This document shows, piece by piece, positions 18,104-58,083 of a DNA stretch of 64,000 nt. The stretch is taken from positions 867,958-931,957 of the forward strand of contig CM038913.1 of the NCBI GenBank assembly GCA_021904315.1, given 5' to 3'. Source of the DNA: Sphagnum magellanicum (lineage: Eukaryota > Streptophyta > Sphagnopsida > Sphagnales > Sphagnaceae). The translations under genes were made by a program, and so were the position numbers. Below the pieces are notes generated by a model, which was not told where the DNA came from, did not search any database, and worked only from the letters and a program-made list of their open reading frames with translations. Numbering within the stretch: the stretch's first letter is position 1; each line of letters begins with the position of its first letter.

Positions 18104-20618
18104 TTACAACCCAAGTTGAGTAGAAGCTCCTGCGGTTGACATAGACCTCCAGTTGAGAGTTGCCAGGCCATACAAGAAGCGTTCAGACAATCGGAGGAGG
18201 CCTGCAAGTGAAAGCTTTGACGGACATTGCAACTCTTGTGAAGGGGGCTTACAAATCCTTGGGGTCTCCTTCACTTCGAGTATTGAGTGTCCCAATTCCC
18301 TTCTCAATGTCTCTACAATGTTGATGTCCACTGGATCCCCAGAAGCATTGATAACATAAAACACATTGACTGCCTTGTCATCTTGGGTTGCTACATCTGC
18401 CCGTGTGACTGACAGACCATTTTCTCGAAACACTCGTGTAACATGAGACAAAAGCCCCACCCTATCATGTGTGCATAACTCCAGTCTCAGACCCTGCACC
18501 ATAATAAAATGCAAAACATGTCAGTTGGCAGAATGCTTTGGAAAGCTCTTCCTCACCATCCAAGAAATCTTCATATGATGTGTGCCAGTCAAGTTCTTTA
18601 CTCAAATGGGAATTTTCTTACCTCACAAGATCGCCTATCAATGGCAGCCTCCAGGCACTGCTTCATCCACTTCTCAGCTTCTACATCGAGAGTGCAACCA
18701 CTGACATGACGAATGTAGTATTCCTGTTATGAAGGCAAAGAAAGAAATTGCAGGCTGGTCAGGGAGCAATTTGAAACAACGCAACATTTTTAATCTTCAG
18801 GTACCAGTCCCAGGGGTGCATGCATGAGAGAAGGGCCTAATTTGAGAACCTTCCAGCATTTGTGGTACCTGTCTTCTTTAAGGGTCAGTACAGGCCCGTG
18901 TGGGAGGTGTCAAGATCTCAAAAGCTTCTCAAACTAGGGCCTCCTATTATGCAAAAACAATAAACAATGAACTAGGATACTTCAAGTGCCCATAATGAGC
19001 AAGAGTGATGGGAGGGATGAAGTCCCTGAAACTATGACATATCTCTGATCTTCCACTCTCTGGAAACTCTACCTACTGGGGTGGAAACTGGAAACCCTAG
19101 CTCCTGGAGCATGGAATGGGGTACATACCTGTACAGCATCAGTGCCATTGGAATCGATGGTGGCGTGGAAGACGACGTATTGCATATCTGTCAAGGTGCA
19201 AACAATGTCGAATAGAAGCTTGGGTCGATCTTTACAAGAAATGTTGATCACAGAATAGCCCCTCTCGTTACGGCTCTGGATGGCGATCACCGGCTTCTCC
19301 TTATCTGCCGCTAGACTTCTTCTGATGCTGTTGCTGCATCTTGTTGTTGTTGTGGGAAACTCAAGGGCTTCTTCGTAATCACGATCCGCGAACATCATCT
19401 GATGAAGCCGTCTCTCCGTGTGCGTCACCTCGGTTCCAAAGTCTGTCTTAGCACCCCTGATTTCGTCATCACCTGATTTCATGACTTGGAATAGCTGGTT
19501 CTTGATGCGTTGCAGTTTGTTCCCGTTTGCAACGGGGCCGGGCGTCTCCTCGTCTGTTACGTAGATCACACAAGCTACTCGCAAGTTGTGAGTCCATACT
19601 TCCGCCGCATTGACATTGCATCCTGTTTCTGTGAGCACGGCAGAAACCTCTGATAGAAGCCCTGGTCTGTCTGTCCCTGTGAGCTCTATTACTGTGTGCT
19701 CGGCTATGGACTTCACTCCCACCGAGCGACCAGGGCACCGTAAAAGCTCAACTGAGGACACTTCCCGCTTCTTTCTAGCTCCCAATGTCTGCAGACAGGA
19801 GGAGCCCCAGGAAACTCTTAGAAAAAAGAAAAAAAAGAAAAAAGGCTACCCATTACAGCAAACCTACACCTACAGCCCAGAGAAGAGAAGGAAGAACAAT
19901 TGCTGCCTCTGGTGTCTTCGCGGACCTGCTGAATGTAGTTCATGATTCTGTCCTCGGAGACCTTCTTCCCGAACAAGTCTGTCACATGGAATACTGCGCC
20001 AAGAATAAGGCACACAATCAGCGACAAATCGAGAATCATGAGGAAAAATGTGTCGAAGATTTGCAGAACGCAAGGATTTAGCCTCACGATTTGCTGAGAG
20101 AAAAGATTGCATGTGGAGCAGCATACATACCATCCATAAACCATCCGCCATCGGAAGAGATATAAGCTTTGGATATGGCCAACTCGAGATCAGTGAGAAC
20201 TTGTACAACGCTGAGAAGAATTCTGTGTCTGTTAGCGCTGTGGAACTGTTTTTTCACATTTCCAACAGCAACAGCAGTAAGTTGATGATGCACGTAGAAA
20301 GGTCCAGCACCTTCACAGTACAAGGCAGCAGCAATTTCCTAGCTAGGAACACCAGCATCAGCTTCAAGGAACAAGAAGAAGAGGAAACCTAGTACCTTCA
20401 CAACTGTAATATCCTCGAATGCATCGTTGTCAACTACGACTCTGCACCACAAGCACAAGCAATCCATGAGAAAGAAGAGCTTGAATGATGTTATCACTAT
20501 GCTACCGGCGGTGGGTTGCAGGAATCTCATACCTAGGAGGATTGAAGCGAGGCCCGCTGGTTTCATATTCAGGATCAAAGTAGGGCCAGCTTCCAGATGC
20601 AATGCCAGGAGCCGCCAT
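18104..20618 (-). CDS. ACT-domain-repeat (ACR) protein, seven exons, 488 residues
   Basis: ACR proteins are plant proteins built from four ACT domains, which resemble amino-acid-binding modules of GlnD and metabolic enzymes; they are thought to sense or regulate and have no known catalysis. The model joins exons 20,618-20,533, 20,441-20,396, 20,245-20,131, 19,993-19,926, 19,788-19,129, 18,723-18,622 and 18,493-18,104. All introns are GT/AG and phases agree, giving 1,467 nt with one stop. The start is the ATG that opens MAAPG and leads into SWPYFDPEYE, the family N-terminus. ACT1 is about residues 37-105 (DGGWFMDVFHVTD), ACT2 137-210 (GTDRPGLLSE, AAEVWTHN), ACT3 284-358 (CKDRPKLLFD, HATIDSNGTDA, EYYIRH), ACT4 360-435 (LELCTHDRVGLLS). 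The C-terminus has the family ERFLYG motif. Odd: residue 52 is Arg (NRHRILL) where ACT1 normally has Gly. Length is near the family norm. Likely functional; ligand unknown. Confidence 0.93.
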
Positions 20619-35309: not shown

Positions 35310-36725
35310 TGAGTTTGTTTATTTCATTTAAGGACTTTTATCTTCCAAATTAAAGTTGAATTACCACCTTTATACATTTATAGAGTTTAAGGTAAGGATT
35401 TAGGCCAAGGCCATACTCAGAATCACCACACACATCCCAGGTATCAAAAGACTTCAAGTCCTTCTAATTATAATGAAGAAGATAGGTTTCAGGGGTACAT
35501 AACTACCCATACACATGTAATCCAATAGATAGTTGTAAGCTAGAAAGATTTAAAGCTAAGAATATAAGTTTTAGGTGTTATTGAGTACCATGTTCAACAA
35601 GGCCAACAAATTACGGTATATCATTGAGTTGTAGACCATCCAAACAAGTATTTATTTCATTTAAAAACCCAAACTAGTTTCTAAACTAAACTTGAATTAC
35701 CACCTTTATACATCTACAAAGCTTAAGATAAAGATATATTCAGGGCCATACTCAAAATGACCACACACATCCAAGATATAAAAAAACCTTGAATACCTTT
35801 TGGTTGCAATGAACAAGATAGGTTTCAGGGGTACATAAAAACCCATACACATGCACTTTAATAGACGTTGAAAGCTAGAAGATTTAAAGCCAAGAAAATG
35901 GGTTTAAAATGCTTTTCAATACCATGTTCAACAATACCAACAAATTAAGGTATTCATTGAGTTACAAACCATCCAAACAAATGTATATTTCATCTATAAA
36001 CCCCTAGTTTCCAAACTAAAGTTGAATTACCACCTTTATACATTTGTAGAATTTAAAGTAAGGATTCAAGGCCATATTCAGAATCACCACACACATCCAA
36101 GGTATAAGAAGACTTGAAATCCTTTTGGTTGGAATGGAAAAGATAGGTTTTAGGGGTACATAATTAACCATACACCTGCACTCTAGTAGACGGTGTAAGT
36201 TGGAAAGATTCAAAGCCAAGAAGACAAGTTTCAAGTGTCTTTGAATACTATGTTCAACAAGGCCAACAAATTAAGGTATATCATTGAAATGTAGACCATC
36301 CAAACAAGTGTCTATTTCATCTAGAGATCCCTATCTTCCAAATTGAAATTGAATTACCACTTTTATACATCTATAAAGCTTAAGGTAAGGGTTCAAAGCC
36401 ATACTCATAGTCACCACACACATCTAGGGTATATGACTTGAAGTCCTTTTGGTTGTAGCAAACAAGACCTAATTTACTTGGGGTACATAACTACCCATAC
36501 ACATGCACTTCAGTGGACAATGTAAGTTGGAAATATTCAAAGCCAAGAAACATGTTTCAACTATCTTTGAATACAATGTTTTGCAAACAAATTAACATAT
36601 ATGGTTGAATTGTAGACCATCCAAACAAGTGTATTTCATTTAAAGGCCTAGGCTAGTTTCAAAACTAAAGTTGAATTACCACCTTTATACATATGCAAAG
36701 CTTAAGGTAAGGATATATATTCAGG
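35310..36725 (+). repeat. tandem array of ~330-bp units (about 4.3 copies)
   Basis: The landmark TTGAATTACCAC(C/T)TTTATACAT recurs at about 35,353, 35,693, 36,024, 36,351 and 36,673, spacings 340 to 322 and shrinking. Other shared blocks are ACCACACACATCC, AGGGGTACATAA, CCATACAC(A/C)TG, CATGTTCAACAAGGCC and TAGACCATCCAAACAAGT. The array is cut in mid-unit by the LTR that starts at 36,726. The same unit in reverse orientation flanks the other LTR at 29.28-29.82 kb. Confidence 0.9.
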
Positions 36726-41434: not shown

Positions 41435-42285
41435 TTTTTGAAATCAATAGGTGTTGGGAAGCCATTGTATTATTTTTCAACATAATTTTCTTAGAACAAC
41501 CCCTCCTAGTAGTCAGAAGTTAATATACAACTTTTTTGACAAATTGGGTGCCTATGTTATTTCAAAAACTTTACACAAACTTCACCTTATTCTTAATGTT
41601 TTCAAATTAATCAAAAATAGAAACTTGAATCCTAAAATTTACACAAAACAAACAAACATGTATAAACCAAAATTTCAAGCATGATTGCTTTTCAAATCTG
41701 ATTTATTAAAACTATTGAATCAAATCAAGATCCTAAGCATGACTGCTTCTAAATTTTGATCCCTAGTATGGTTGCCAAATGGTAATGGGTTTTTATATTC
41801 CCATCAAGGTTATTCTACTTCTAAATTCTTCAACAATAAGTTCCTAAATAACAACATGTACATGCAAAACACTAACAAAACTTAAACTACATACAAATCC
41901 TAGATTAACAAATATACAAATTATTCAAAACTTGAAAGAAATTAACTAAAAGAGTAATGATTCATATTCTATAAAATGAAAATTGAAACACTGTGAGGCA
42001 ACTTTTGTCCCTCTACCTCCGGTTCTACAAGGTGACTATGCTTGAAAGCACAAATGCTACCGATGAAGGACGAATGCGAATGTATGTTTAGTTATTAGGT
42101 TACGTTCGTAGATGAAGTTAATTATTTTGCCTTCCAAGCATCATTCACAATTCAACATTGATAGATTCGTTATTTAAATTCACACATTCCAAAAACCAAA
42201 ACCTTATATCAAATTGTCATCCCTTTTAATGAACACTTATGGACTCAACACCTTTTTAAACTTGGTTACAACCAGCAAGCCTTTG
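41435..42285. other. A+T-rich sequence upstream of the minus-strand Gag
   Basis: On the minus strand this is where a 5' leader and LTR would be expected, but no TG...CA boundary, primer-binding site or second LTR copy could be identified. A lone 77-codon plus-strand frame (41,451-41,684) has no motif. Confidence 0.35.
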
Positions 42286-42289
42286 AACT

Positions 42290-42626
42290 ATTGTTTCTAA
42301 CACATAGGTTGTCTAAATCTCGCTTGCTTTAGCTCTTTGGAAAAAGCTAACCACTAGGCGCACCTTCCCACCAAATATTAAGATCTGCAGTTAAATAACT
42401 AGGAAGTTATGCTACGAAACCCGAGAGGGTTTTGCAAAGGAAATTGGTCCAACTCGACTACAGACCCTAGTCACTTGGAGAATTGTTTCTCCCACATACG
42501 TTGTCCAAATCTAGCTTGCTATAGCTCTCTGGAAAGCTAGCAACAATGCGCATCTACCTACCAAATCTTAGGCTCTGCAGCTAAATAATTAGGAAGTTAT
42601 ACTACGAAACCCGAGAGGTTTTTTTG
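42290..42626. repeat. two copies of a ~145-bp block, 192-bp spacing
   Basis: ATTGTTTCT...ACATA(G/C)GTTGTC(T/C)AAATCT...AGCTCT(T/C)TGGAAA...CTGCAG(T/C)TAAATAA...GAAGTTAT(G/A)CTACGAAACCCGAGAGG occurs at 42,290 and 42,482. The two copies are clearly homologous, with scattered substitutions and one small indel. Confidence 0.85.
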
Positions 42627-42857
42627 TGAAGTTTCTCTAAATTCTAACCTTCCAACCTCATCATTCCTCACCCGCATTCCTTAAAACTACTACAAGATCT
42701 TCCCTCCACTCCTTTCCTTCTTCCCTCTCCTAAGTCTCGTCCCCATTCCCTTCAAAAAGCTTGTGAAACAAGTATTCAAGGAAATTCTCCAAGGCAAAGA
42801 GAGACCCCCCCAATCATCCGAGCCGCCTTTTAAAGAGAAAGAGAAGGGAGGAGGGAG

Positions 42858-42998
42858 GATCCCATGCTTGGTGGTCAAAGAAGATCCCTTGCTTGGTGGT
42901 CAATGAAGATCCCTTGCTTGGTGGTCAATGAAGGATCCCATGCTTGGTGGTCAATGAAGGATCCCATGCTTGGTGGTCAATGAAGATCCCTTGCTACC
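42858..42998. repeat. minisatellite, five copies of a 25-26-bp unit
   Basis: Units GATCCC(A/T)TGCTTGGTGGTC plus AATGAA(G) start at 42,858, 42,883, 42,908, 42,934 and 42,960, with a partial sixth. Only one or two bases differ between units, so expansion is recent. It sits about 145-270 bases upstream of the TATA box of the ORF at 43,224. Confidence 0.95.
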
Positions 42999-43127
42999 TA
43001 TTCCCATTTCCCCTTGAGCAACTTATTTGAACCTTCATTTTATTTTATTTTTTATCCTTTGACCTTAAATTTTTACTTTACCACGGTCCTAGGCCATCAT
43101 TTACACCTCCTCTTCCTTTCCTCGGCC

Positions 43128-43134
43128 TATAAAT
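43128..43134 (+). promoter_or_regulatory. TATA box of the orphan ORF
   Basis: TATAAAT in a C-rich context (CTCGGCC upstream), about 90 bases before the ATG at 43,224. It would start a transcript near 43,158-43,162. The match to a plant core promoter is good but unsupported by expression data. Confidence 0.5.
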
Positions 43135-43223
43135 CATGACCGCAAAACTTGATGTCACAAGTCCACCCCACCTCCATTGTCAATTCGATTTTGTTGAAGA
43201 TCTTTCCTCTCTTCCTTGAAAAT

Positions 43224-43646
43224 ATGGCGTTGCGCACGGTCACATCCTACGGGCCTCAAGCCGCACAAGCGGATGCAGAACTGCCTTCGGAGTCATCTTT
43301 AGATCTAACCCTAACGCAGCATCCTCGCGATGAAAAACCCGAACCTCGCGAAGTGCGCGCTCATCTCGAAGTTGAACCCCCTCGAGCTTGGTACTATCGT
43401 ATTTCGCCAAACTCCCGCACCCTGGTGATCTTATTACAAGTTGACCCCGCTTCTGGTGACGAACCCAAAATTGTCTACGAAGGTTGTTATGAAACCGAAA
43501 ACACTTCTATCTTCGCTTGGTCTTCAGTTCCCGGCGTTGGACACTATCGTTGGTTGCGCGGTCCGATTTGTCGACTACCTCTTAATAGCAAAGCGGACTA
43601 CCTAGTTCGTACCATTCGACGCATTCTAGACTTCCTACAGTTATGA
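43224..43646 (+). CDS. orphan 140-residue protein, CpG-rich coding sequence, family not recognised
   Basis: The ATG at 43,224 in context AAAATATGGCG is chosen because an upstream in-frame ATG (43,152) lies before the predicted transcription start. The protein starts MALRTVTSYGPQ and has an acidic, proline- and glutamate-rich N-terminal third (about residues 8-60). A compact hydrophobic/aromatic C-terminal part follows (WYYRISPNSRTLVILLQVD, GCYETENTSIFAW, GHYRWLRGPICRLPL, YLVRTIRRILDFLQL). No signal peptide, zinc motif or catalytic motif is evident. Codons rich in GCG, CGC and CGA contrast sharply with the CpG-poor retrotransposon debris on both sides, suggesting a recent arrival or selection. 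With its own TATA and AATAAA it looks like a compact intronless gene. Alternatives: an ORF carried by an LTR element, a captured gene or a virus-derived sequence. No function is assigned. Confidence 0.5.
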   Translation: MALRTVTSYGPQAAQADAELPSESSLDLTLTQHPRDEKPEPREVRAHLEVEPPRAWYYRISPNSRTLVILLQVDPASGDEPKIVYEGCYETENTSIFAWSSVPGVGHYRWLRGPICRLPLNSKADYLVRTIRRILDFLQL

Positions 43647-43710
43647 GCTAAAGCGTAGCTTAGGACTTGACATGTACTTGTAGCTCCTTGTTGAGCTTGC
43701 TCATAATCTA

Positions 43711-43716
43711 AATAAA
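43711..43716 (+). terminator. AATAAA polyadenylation signal after the orphan ORF
   Basis: AATAAA 65 bases after the TGA that ends the orphan ORF, preceded by TTG-rich sequence (TTGTAGCTCCTTGTTGAG) that could act as a far-upstream element. It fits a transcript of about 580 bases from the TATA box at 43,128. Confidence 0.45.
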
Positions 43717-43734
43717 CATTTCAGTCCTCATGAA

Positions 43735-44630
43735 ACTCCTATTATCATTGGCACACTGTCACATCGTCTATTTAATCATTAAGCTGATTTGAATCAATCC
43801 TTCGCTCCTATGGGTTGAAGATTGCTCTAGTTCTATTGGGCCTTTCACTAACCCCCTCACCCTACTTCATAAATTCCCAGTGTTCTTGCTACTTGCCAAC
43901 TACTAATACTAGACCAATGTTTTGTCGCACACCATGAACTCTGGTGTTTGTTTTTCTTTCCCCAGCCTTCTAGAGATTTCTCATCCCTACTTCCGCCAGT
44001 AAGGTTCCAAAACTATGGTTTATCCATTCTTTGTTGCAGAAAAGAACTAACCCAATTAATATCGTATTTCAGACAACTAAACCCCCCCCCTCACACCTTG
44101 TGCACACTCATCAACCCCTATTCTAACACAAAGTTGTTAAACCCCCCTAATAACTTCACCACACTCACATATTCCTAACCCAATTTTAAAATATTGAGAC
44201 TACTAGCCATGGCCATGTCGGTAGAGCTCACAAACACACAATCAAAAATGAAATCTAAAAGCTCCTTAACATGTTTGTCCTCCTGGTCTTATACTAGTTA
44301 TTTTAAAATACAACAATTATAATTGATCATTGTAAATAGTCATTAACCAGTACCTAGATTAATGATTCAAAATTTCAAAAAACTACACCTTATTTAACCA
44401 CTTGTGCAATTACTAGTTTTGCCAAATACAGGTTCCACAAATCAGATGTTGACTAACTTGTCAACCTATCTTCATAACCTAGTATAACATTACCTATTAG
44501 GTTTAGTAATTAGTTAGGTCAATACTATAGGTTAGGTTAAATAATAAGTTAAATCACATGTTAGGTTTAACAACATGCTTACATTTTAAACCTATTAAGT
44601 CACTTGTTAAATTTGGGTAACAACCACAAA
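43735..44630. other. spacer between the orphan ORF and the reverse transcriptase remnant
   Basis: No coding or Gag sequence is recognised. Short C-runs occur near 44,080-44,150. The part 44,430-44,600 has repeated TTAGGT(T)TA words. The Gag and protease that should precede this RT are missing on the plus strand. Confidence 0.4.
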
Positions 44631-44634
44631 AAAG

Positions 44635-47600
44635 GATCCATACCCATTACCTTTTACAAATGAAGTTTTAAACACAATAGAAGGGTATGAGGCATATTCT
44701 TTTTTAGATGGATATTTAAGATATCATCAAATCTATATAACTCTAAAGGATAGATATAAGACTACATTTGTTACAAACTTGGGGGGTTTTGTATGGAAGG
44801 TGTTGTCGTTTGGAATAAAAAAAAGACCTCTAACGTATCAAAAAGTTGTTACCAAAACATTTAGATAATATTTGGATAGTTTTATGAAGATATCTTTGAA
44901 TGATTTTAGTGTATAATGACATGGACAGTCATCTGCAAAAGCTTAGATTATGTTTTCAAAAGTGCAAAGAATATGGCATTAGTCTAAATCTAGACAAATG
45001 TGCATATATGGTATTTTCAAGGATGATCTTGGAGTTCATTATTTCCAAAGAAGGGAAACTACTAGATCCAAAGAAAATACAAGTAATAGTAAACATGCCA
45101 CCACCTAAAAATCCACAATAGATTCAAATATTCAATGGGATGGCATAGTTTTACATACACTTTATCAAAACTTTGTTACTATTATGGCACCTATCATTAA
45201 ATTGACCAAAAATACAAGCTTTTTTTTGGACAAAAGAATGTCAAAAGGCTTGGGAGTTGATCAAATATAAGTATATTGAAGCATTGATATTGATATCATT
45301 AAACTAGCAGTGGAGTTTCATGTTCATACATATGCATCTTTATTAGCTATGGGAGCTATGTTATCTCATAATTTAATAGGGAAGAGTGATCAATCAATGG
45401 TGTATGCTTATAGACTTTTGAACATAACAGAACATAATTATAACACAAGAGATAGAAAGGCTTTAGCAATGGTTTTTCCTTTGCACAAGTTCAAACATTA
45501 TTTGTTGGGTAATAAGTTTGTCTTTTATGTAGATCATATTGCATTGGTCTATTTGGTCAACAAATCATAAGTTTTAGGAATAATAGCTAGATGGTTATTA
45601 TTGTAATTGGAACATGACTTCACAATAATGTATAGGCAAGGCATAGCTCATGTAGTTACAAATGCATTGTTAAGACTATTAGATATTATAGAACCCATAT
45701 GTGTGCCTGATCAAACCACATATGCAAATTTGTTTTACACAAAGCTTGAATGGCTAAATGATGTAAAAGAATTTTTGAAAACAAATTAGATTAAGGGCAC
45801 ATTATTTATATAACAAAAGTAGAAACTAGTCAGGAGAGCAAAACCTTTCACATTGAAAAATGGTGAATTATACATAATGGGCCAAAACAACAAAGTGTGA
45901 AGATGTTTAACAACTATAGAAGCATAAATGGTGATGAAAAAATTACATGAAGGACCATTAGGAAGGCATTTTGTAATTGAAATCACATACAGGAAAATAT
46001 TGGATGTCGAATATTAGTGGCCAATTTTGTATAGAGATGTGCATGACTACTGCAGATCTTGTGATGCATGCCAAAGAAAAGGAAGATTGGTGACACACCC
46101 CCAAGCTCCTTGATAGACTCAACTATGACTCCAAGGTGAAGACAACGAAAGGATAAGGAATTGGGTTTCGTTCCCTAGCTCATAGTATTTCAGGAATAGG
46201 ACAAGTTGGAGCTACGGGATGGGGACTAGGACGAATGATAAGCATATCAATCATTCACATGGACCTGCACAAACTAAATAACAAGTTGATTAATGCATAG
46301 TTGGAGCACCTTTGGTGCACGGATAAGCCACGGGCAAACACGGATTCGCAAGATTCATCACGGCCTGGACTTGGGGGAAGCCACCACCTTCCCCCTTATA
46401 GTATTATTTGTGCTTGGCCATAGGGCCTACACCCAAATGTCATTTTGTCTCGGGACTCCCAAATTGGGAGTCCTAAAATTCCCGAAATAAGGACTTTCAT
46501 GACTTTGGAAGCCCATGACTTTTTTTAAACCTCCAATTGAAGTGAGGTATAAAATATAATTATAGCCCTTGTTGAGAGCTTTCCAACGATATGTAGCACA
46601 CCACCTATATGTAAGTAAATCAAGGCGATTCCTGACTTTTGGTGGTCGGGAATCAAATTGGTAGTTTGACTCTCGACCCTTCTTTTGGCCATAACTTATG
46701 TTTTAAAAACCCAAATGGGTCATGTGAGCCCATTTTAGACATCTATATTTCAAGAGCTTTTCAATGATATAAGGAACTTTTCAATCCAATGAGTTTTGGC
46801 CTTTGCAATTGCCCTTTAAAAATTAAAGAGTCCATCAAAACTCCAACTCCCGCTCATTTGGGAGTGTGTGGGTTCATTCCCTCATAGTCTCCTACACTTT
46901 TAGGAGCATGAAATGTGACTTTCGGGCTTCATTTTTGGCCTACACCTTTGTAAGCCCTTGTTTTGGTCGTGAGCCCAAGGTTAAGGTTGCGACTATTGAT
47001 GATTTAAAATCTTATAAGTACATTAGTCACAAGTCTTCTAGAATGACCATTTCTGAAATGGGGACTTGATTTTGTGGGGCTAATTAAACCAATAGGTAGA
47101 TATACAAGAAATAAATATATTTTTGTAGCCACTGATTATGTTATTAAGTGGGTGGAAGTAAGAACATTGAAAATTAATACTGCAATAGTAACAACGAAAT
47201 TTTTGTATGAGTGCATATTAATTAGGTTTGGATGTCCTTTGACTATAATCATAGATTAGGGAGTTCATTTCATTAATGATGCCATCAAATATTTGATAGA
47301 TCATTTTCTATTGAAACATGTGAGTTCTACAACCTATTATCCTTAAGGGAATGGTTAGGTTAAGTCTACTAACAAGGTATTTTGGACATTATTGATCAAG
47401 TTAGTTAGTGAAAATAGAACAAATTAGGATGAACATCTATTAACAATGTTATTTTTATACAAAATTATATACAAAATAATAACATGGTATACACCATATC
47501 AATTAGTGTATGGATTACATCCATTGATGCCCACATAATACACAGTGCCAGTTGTTGGTGGACTTCAAAGAAATAATACTTTAGCGAGAGTTTTAACTAA

Positions 47601-57645: not shown

Positions 57646-58083
57646 ATGCCTCGTCAAAGGAGTGCAGGAGGGCGAAGTGGATCGCGGCCGATGGCAAGAG
57701 GGGCACCTCCACCAGCACGGGTGCATCATGCTCCACCTCCGGCTCCCATGCAGCAGAGCAGTGGTGGAGGATCTATGCTTGGAGGTTTGGCCAGCACTAT
57801 TGCGCAAGGGATGGCGTTCGGGACAGGGAGTGCCGTGGCGCACAGAGCCGTGGATTCCATCATGGGACCCCGCACCGTTCAGCATGAAGTAGTGCAACAG
57901 GAGGTTGGAGGAGTAGGGGGTGCCGCGCCGCTTGCGTCTCCCGTGGCCATGGATTCATGCGTGAACCAGTCTAAGGCTTTCCAGGACTGTCTGAATGCCA
58001 ACGGCAGTGATATTGGCAAGTGCCAGTTCTACGTCGACATGCTGAATGAGTGTCGTCGAGGTCCTGCTCAAATGGTTGTGTGA
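57646..58083 (+). CDS. CHCH-domain (twin CX9C) protein, CHCHD2/CHCHD10-like
   Basis: Twin-CX9C proteins of this type are usually imported into the mitochondrial intermembrane space by the Mia40 disulfide relay; the CHCHD2/10 group is linked to respiration and cristae structure. The 145-residue ORF has a basic, proline-rich N-terminus (MPRQRSAGGRSGSRPMARGA). A glycine-rich hydrophobic middle follows (residues 42-73: GSMLGGLASTIAQGMAFGTGSAVAHRAVDSIM), then the CHCH domain with Cys105/Cys115 and Cys126/Cys136, each pair exactly CX9C. Length and domain order match the family. The ATG context AAAGATGCC is acceptable and no in-frame ATG lies upstream. The coding region has no intron, whereas the ACR gene nearby has six. 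A C/T-rich leader (57.37-57.64 kb) with GGTTAGGGTTTGC precedes it. Probably functional. Confidence 0.92.
   Translation: MPRQRSAGGRSGSRPMARGAPPPARVHHAPPPAPMQQSSGGGSMLGGLASTIAQGMAFGTGSAVAHRAVDSIMGPRTVQHEVVQQEVGGVGGAAPLASPVAMDSCVNQSKAFQDCLNANGSDIGKCQFYVDMLNECRRGPAQMVV

Follow-up and report, generated by a model that had tools for sequence, protein, structure and literature searches.

An LTR-like repeat family of Sphagnum magellanicum with a conserved 140-codon open reading frame

A stretch of 64,000 nucleotides from the Sphagnum magellanicum genome (positions 867,958-931,957 of contig CM038913.1; hereafter the window) contains an uninterrupted open reading frame (ORF) that is rich in CpG dinucleotides and surrounded by CpG-poor retrotransposon remains. 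This raises the question of whether the ORF is a gene in its own right or a part of one of the repeats. Previously, a reading of the sequence alone described it as a compact orphan gene, interpreted its CpG content as the mark of a young, newly acquired or selected sequence, and proposed the genomic copy number, the dN/dS ratios among copies and a comparison with viral proteins as means to decide. In this work, genome-wide protein searches were combined with comparison of the repeat boundaries, analysis of codon evolution and profile searches to infer the origin of the ORF and of the DNA that carries it.

The open reading frame and the unit that contains it

The ORF starts with the ATG at 43224 and is closed by the TGA at 43644-43646 (140 codons plus stop, 43224..43646, + strand), with A at position -3 and G at +4 of the start codon, in agreement with the strong ATG context reported by the sequence-only reading. 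An in-frame ATG at 43152 was considered as an alternative start; 43224 was taken because the upstream codon is not kept in the alignment with L029 and L030, two copies of a diverged subfamily. The expected signals are also in place: a TATAAA box (43128..43133, +) lies 96 bases before the ATG, close to the distance of about 95 bases given earlier, and an AATAAA poly(A) signal (43711..43716, +) follows the stop codon after the reported 65 bases. Both signals are kept in L029 and L030 despite a noncoding identity of 71-75%. Retrotransposon debris around the ORF is likewise real, as a broken fragment of a reverse-transcriptase RNase H domain (Pfam PF17917) was found at 45310-45567 (+).

The description as a compact orphan gene, in contrast, does not hold, since the ORF is located inside a dispersed element with LTR-like ends and a target-site duplication. 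This solo-LTR-like unit of 2,241 bp (41992..44232, +) begins with TGTGAG and ends with CTCACA, and its two limits are common to most of the twenty 10-kb stretches that were compared with the window. The boundaries are sharp among the copies in loci L010-L028, where the 5' end reads TGTGA in 17 of 19 copies (TATGA in L011 and L025) and the 3' end reads CACA in all 19; the unit length varies between 2227 and 2720 bp among copies. The window unit is flanked by 5-bp duplications of AACAC (41987..41991 on the left and 44233..44237 on the right, without strand). Perfect 5-bp duplications were observed in 20 of the 22 copies with placed ends, namely in 17 of 19 copies in L010-L028 and in the window, L029 (TGGCA) and L030 (CCAAG) copies; L010 and L022 are the exceptions, and both L009 copies and the L034 copy were left out of the count because an end was unplaceable. 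The U3-like part of the window unit contains two tandem copies of a stretch of about 144 bp (42290-42433 and 42482-42623, 84% identical; 42290..42623, +), and a 25-bp minisatellite of 5.4 copies (42858..42995, +) is located directly upstream of the promoter.

A six-frame protein search of the genome (438,994,042 bases) identified at least 150 copies of the ORF with 79-100% identity (the best 150 of 1134 candidates), and the matches listed for this family, termed family A, are spread over 21 contigs. With the diverged L029 copy as query, largely the same places were returned (lists compared by eye). A separate observation concerns two family-A units on contig C4, L022 (3475-5757, +) and L034 (544-2826, -), which are identical over 2,283 bp, lie in opposite orientation about 10.5 kb apart and both lack a matching duplication; the pair suggests a later rearrangement, perhaps gene conversion or inversion between copies.

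A second protein family, family B, was recognized through L012 and L024, which encode proteins 41% and 37% identical to the window protein. With a part of the L012/L024-type protein as query, at least 150 family-B matches were obtained (the best 150 of 710 candidates), and another family-B member as query also gave at least 150 (the best 150 of 1060 candidates). In an alignment of 24 proteins, comprising 14 members of family A and 10 uninterrupted members of family B, the latter are colinear with the window protein and 39-47% identical to it. Family B follows the same protein plan as family A, and its 3' ends read CTCACA in all four cases viewed.

Solo LTR or self-standing element

The unit shows the features of a solo LTR: TG..CA ends, 5-bp duplications, one unit per site, and a predicted promoter and poly(A) signal (as sequence motifs). 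TG..CA ends combined with 5-bp duplications are the typical product of an LTR integrase. With the solo LTRs of Ty3/gypsy or Ty1/copia elements it shares the single TG..CA unit per site and the perfect 5-bp duplication, and it differs from them in the presence of a selected ORF and in that no full-length parent was found. We consider it probable that the unit is a solo LTR carrying a selected accessory gene.

The search for the remainder of such an element gave the following picture. Within the unit, self-comparison of the window (pieces over 60 or 80 bases) revealed internal repeats only and no long direct repeats at its termini. The short terminal direct repeats at both unit ends that characterize TRIM elements are absent from it, and in place of the two LTRs around a primer-binding site, gag-pol and a polypurine tract that make up a complete LTR retrotransposon, the window copy has one unit flanked by duplications. 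Among the matches listed for both families, no full-length element with the unit as its LTR was found in the genome. Same-strand pairs within 30 kb are represented by one case among the 150 listed copies of family A, whose members each own a duplication and hence are two solos, and by three cases among the 150 listed copies of family B. A family-B same-strand pair 3.8 kb apart on contig C17 is 86% identical, with differing 3' flanks and an unplaced 5' end in the second copy. Among 54 exact 5' ends (list read by eye), no same-strand pair within 30 kb was noticed, and none is preceded by seven uninterrupted purines, a pattern that interrupted polypurine tracts would escape. For the primer-binding site, the LTR end followed by TGGTATC gave no match, and the LTR end followed by TGG within 5 bases gave 11 matches, of which three of five inspected belong to copies with perfect duplications (exact ends only in both searches). 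Since neither a full-length element nor an interior was found, the internal region, and hence the LTR origin of the unit, is something that we infer. In Physcomitrella, elements with a high ratio of solo to full-length LTR copies have been described (PMC7251063).

The strongest competing explanation, which we regard as unlikely, is that the 2.2-kb unit is itself mobile: a transposon with one gene, a terminal inverted repeat of 6 bp and a target duplication of 5 bp, which never possessed a gag-pol interior and was moved by an external integrase or with assistance from the protein that it encodes. The searches made revealed no LTR pair, primer-binding site or polypurine tract adjacent to any copy, and no full-length form was recognized among the matches listed, which include at least 300 copies in the two families. 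However, the TG..CA ends and 5-bp duplications are traces of an LTR integrase, the promoter and the poly(A) signal are placed as in a U3-R-U5 structure with tandem repeats in the U3-like part, and the protein of 140 amino acids has no transposase-like match.

Selection and CpG content

The ORFs of the window copy and of L029 and L030 are 0.86 and 0.83 identical, respectively, compared with 71-73% DNA identity over the whole unit and 0.71-0.75 in the noncoding flanks of the ORF. In the same comparison, the identity is 0.88-0.89 at first, 0.91 at second and 0.71-0.76 at third codon positions; the ORF is thus more than a chance frame, as its first and second positions are more identical than both its third positions and the flanks. 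The dN/dS ratio is 0.12 between the window subfamily and L029/L030 (48 pairs) and 0.71 within the window subfamily (276 pairs), the latter being also the value obtained from 400 runs of a neutral simulation with abundant C-to-T changes, for which the analyst chose the mutation weights. Hence the protein was under purifying selection in the active or source lineage, whereas individual copies of the window subfamily decay neutrally and single copies are dead: the protein mattered to the lineage, not copy by copy. Loci L001-L005 and L008 (coinciding with later loci or with the window), the L034 copy (identical to L022) and, for family B, L042 and L043 (frame shifts at the 3' end) were dropped from these estimates. 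Intermediate ratios were obtained between the family-B groups B1 and B2 (0.27, 42 pairs), within B1 (0.41), within B2 (0.42) and between L029 and L030 (0.37), as expected if selection in the source lineage is mixed with decay of the copies. Between family A and B1, dN is 0.49 and all 156 pairs are saturated at synonymous sites.

The ratios among copies, one of the comparisons proposed at the outset, divide the earlier suggestion of selection into two parts, one that stands for the source lineage of the repeat family and one that fails for the window copy itself. The same reading would have counted its gene as refuted if the ORF were part of a long LTR body in which no frame is conserved; the unit does resemble such an LTR body, but the frame in it is conserved across copies.

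The CpG richness in CpG-poor surroundings was confirmed: the ORF contains 36 CpG in 423 nt (observed/expected ratio, o/e, 1.35), whereas the whole window contains 593 (o/e 0.29), and among 1060 sliding windows of 420 bases none has 36 or more CpG and 0.2% reach the o/e of the ORF. By codon phase, the CpG sites of the ORF number 13, 8 and 15, and family-B ORFs contain 20-40 CpG each (15 loci). Among 20 copies, CpG transitions per CpG per pair amount to 0.164 in the ORF versus 0.201, 0.195 and 0.203 in three other parts of the unit, with a mean pair identity of 0.961 in the ORF versus 0.958-0.973 elsewhere. Because CpG is lost in the ORF about as fast as in the rest of the element, its richness is no sign of recent acquisition, as had been supposed, and present protection from methylation is unsupported as its cause; most likely it was inherited with the constrained coding sequence of the source. 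This calls for caution in general, since a CpG-rich ORF within a CpG-poor plant repeat can be the legacy of a constrained source.

A host gene, recently acquired or exapted and placed by chance among repeats, would share with the ORF a CpG o/e like that of the host gene start near 57.0 kb and a complete unit of promoter, ORF and poly(A) signal. However, the presence of at least 150 copies on 21 contigs among the matches listed, the neutral decay within the subfamily and the 5-bp duplications that flank the whole unit make this very improbable, and for the family as such, copy number together with neutral decay rules out a lone or newly acquired host gene. Still less credible is an ORF that arose by chance in an LTR without coding function and whose frame and CpG persist through base composition only. 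Inertia could have left frames intact in so young a subfamily (stops are absent from 14 of the best 20 matches and from 35% of the neutral copies simulated with 16 changes), but chance fits neither the codon-position pattern and the dN/dS between subfamilies nor a family-B protein that is still colinear and 37-47% identical although the synonymous sites are saturated.

The encoded protein and comparable systems

The encoded protein has no known relatives. No Pfam match was found for the window protein or for any of the 24 aligned proteins, and none in PHROGs for the window protein; a single NCBIfam match (E 0.2, 12 bits against a cut-off of 197) is not a family match, and three PDB searches gave one match with E 4.7, none, and one match with E 1.5, hence no convincing structure. 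These searches accord with the earlier failure to recognize the protein. A viral origin was rejected, as a search of viral contigs, a comparison of the kind suggested beforehand, detected relatives neither for the window protein nor for a family-B protein, and no relative of the window protein was detected in prokaryote genomes using short peptide patterns, which reach close relatives only. AlphaFold2 models had a mean pLDDT of 37.0 (single sequence) and 38.8 (24 sequences), too poor for a fold search. The 24-protein alignment has 30 invariant columns, many of them in GHYRWLxGPI and in the C-terminal TIxxILxFLQL, and the most constrained part of the protein is the C-terminal helix ending in IRRILDFLQL. 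Its spacing (I-x2-I-x3-L-x-L) presumably fits a leucine-rich nuclear export signal, and for this reason a role in RNA export similar to that of Rev/Rec may be offered as a guess to be followed up. The LDLTL of the window protein resembles the EAR repression motif (LxLxL); this assignment is weak, as position 28 is not invariant and LDV is found in 4 of the 10 aligned family-B members.

Mobile elements do not usually keep a gene in the LTR. Animal retroviruses include cases of LTR-borne genes, such as sag of mouse mammary tumour virus, which is alike in being a protein gene within an LTR and differs in the kingdom of its host. Closer to the present host are the accessory ORFs (aORFs) of plant LTR retrotransposons (env-like genes, Grande gene23, RIRE2, Retand; PMC7264820), which likewise encode an extra protein without clear database relatives, occur in most copies and are conserved. 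According to that review, aORFs are internal and mostly follow pol, ahead of the 3' LTR, whereas the present ORF, although similarly conserved in frame, lies within a single LTR-like unit in the sense orientation to its TATA box and poly(A) signal (PMC7264820). Grande gene23 has its own promoter, and roles similar to those of retroviral accessory proteins have been proposed for the antisense class of plant accessory ORFs (PMC7264820). The phrases "within the LTR", "inside the LTR" and "in the LTR" are absent from the review text as available (PMC7264820), and no report of an ORF in a plant LTR was recognized in the literature, as judged by titles and abstract beginnings mostly outside subscription journals. 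The novelty of an LTR-located plant ORF is judged solely from this literature result and that review (PMC7264820).

If the unit is a solo LTR, its parent would be a lineage of LTR retrotransposons that has lost its internal part or retains it in very few places, and in which the LTR itself bore the gene, with TATA box, 140-codon ORF and poly(A) signal in this order. The promoter of any copy could then yield a short mRNA of about 0.6 kb for the protein, apart from any gag-pol transcript. The protein may have served active elements in trans as an accessory factor, kept in the source lineage by the purifying selection described above, while each inserted copy would enter the neutral decay that was observed. 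We somewhat favour the broader proposal that the LTRs of plant retrotransposons can house an accessory gene, which makes every LTR, also a solo one, a complete promoter-gene-terminator cassette; the gene would have been under purifying selection since before the two families (37-47% identical) separated, and after loss of the retrotransposon the cassette may persist as a family of dispersed genes able to act in trans. If so, the LTR would join the known locations of plant accessory ORFs, and solo LTRs would be more than dead promoters, as the protein made by a recent one could still promote or impede its active relatives. The family also provides a system in which selection on a source lineage can be tested against decay in the sampled copies.

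Several other features were observed in the window and the sampled loci. A second LTR-like repeat lies at 46091-46884 (-) in the window; its full copy in L012 (8780-9774, -; 995 bp, TGTCGC...GCGTCA, duplication AACTA) is inserted in the family-B unit there, and more matches are found in L011, L013, L016, L019, L028 and L031. A frame of this repeat encodes the peptide GAISGLPLGSPGKNSHLDV...YYKGEGGGFPQVRAVVSLV, which we take to be one that occurs in many plant genomes. Two host genes of the window encode a CHCH-domain protein (57646-58083, +) and an ACT-domain (ACR-like) protein (18104-19785, -). CpG-rich stretches are located at 57.0 kb and 19-21 kb, with another, to which no gene is assigned, at 25-26 kb, and a tandem array at 35316-36725 (period about 330 bp) has an inverted partner near 29.4-30.2 kb.
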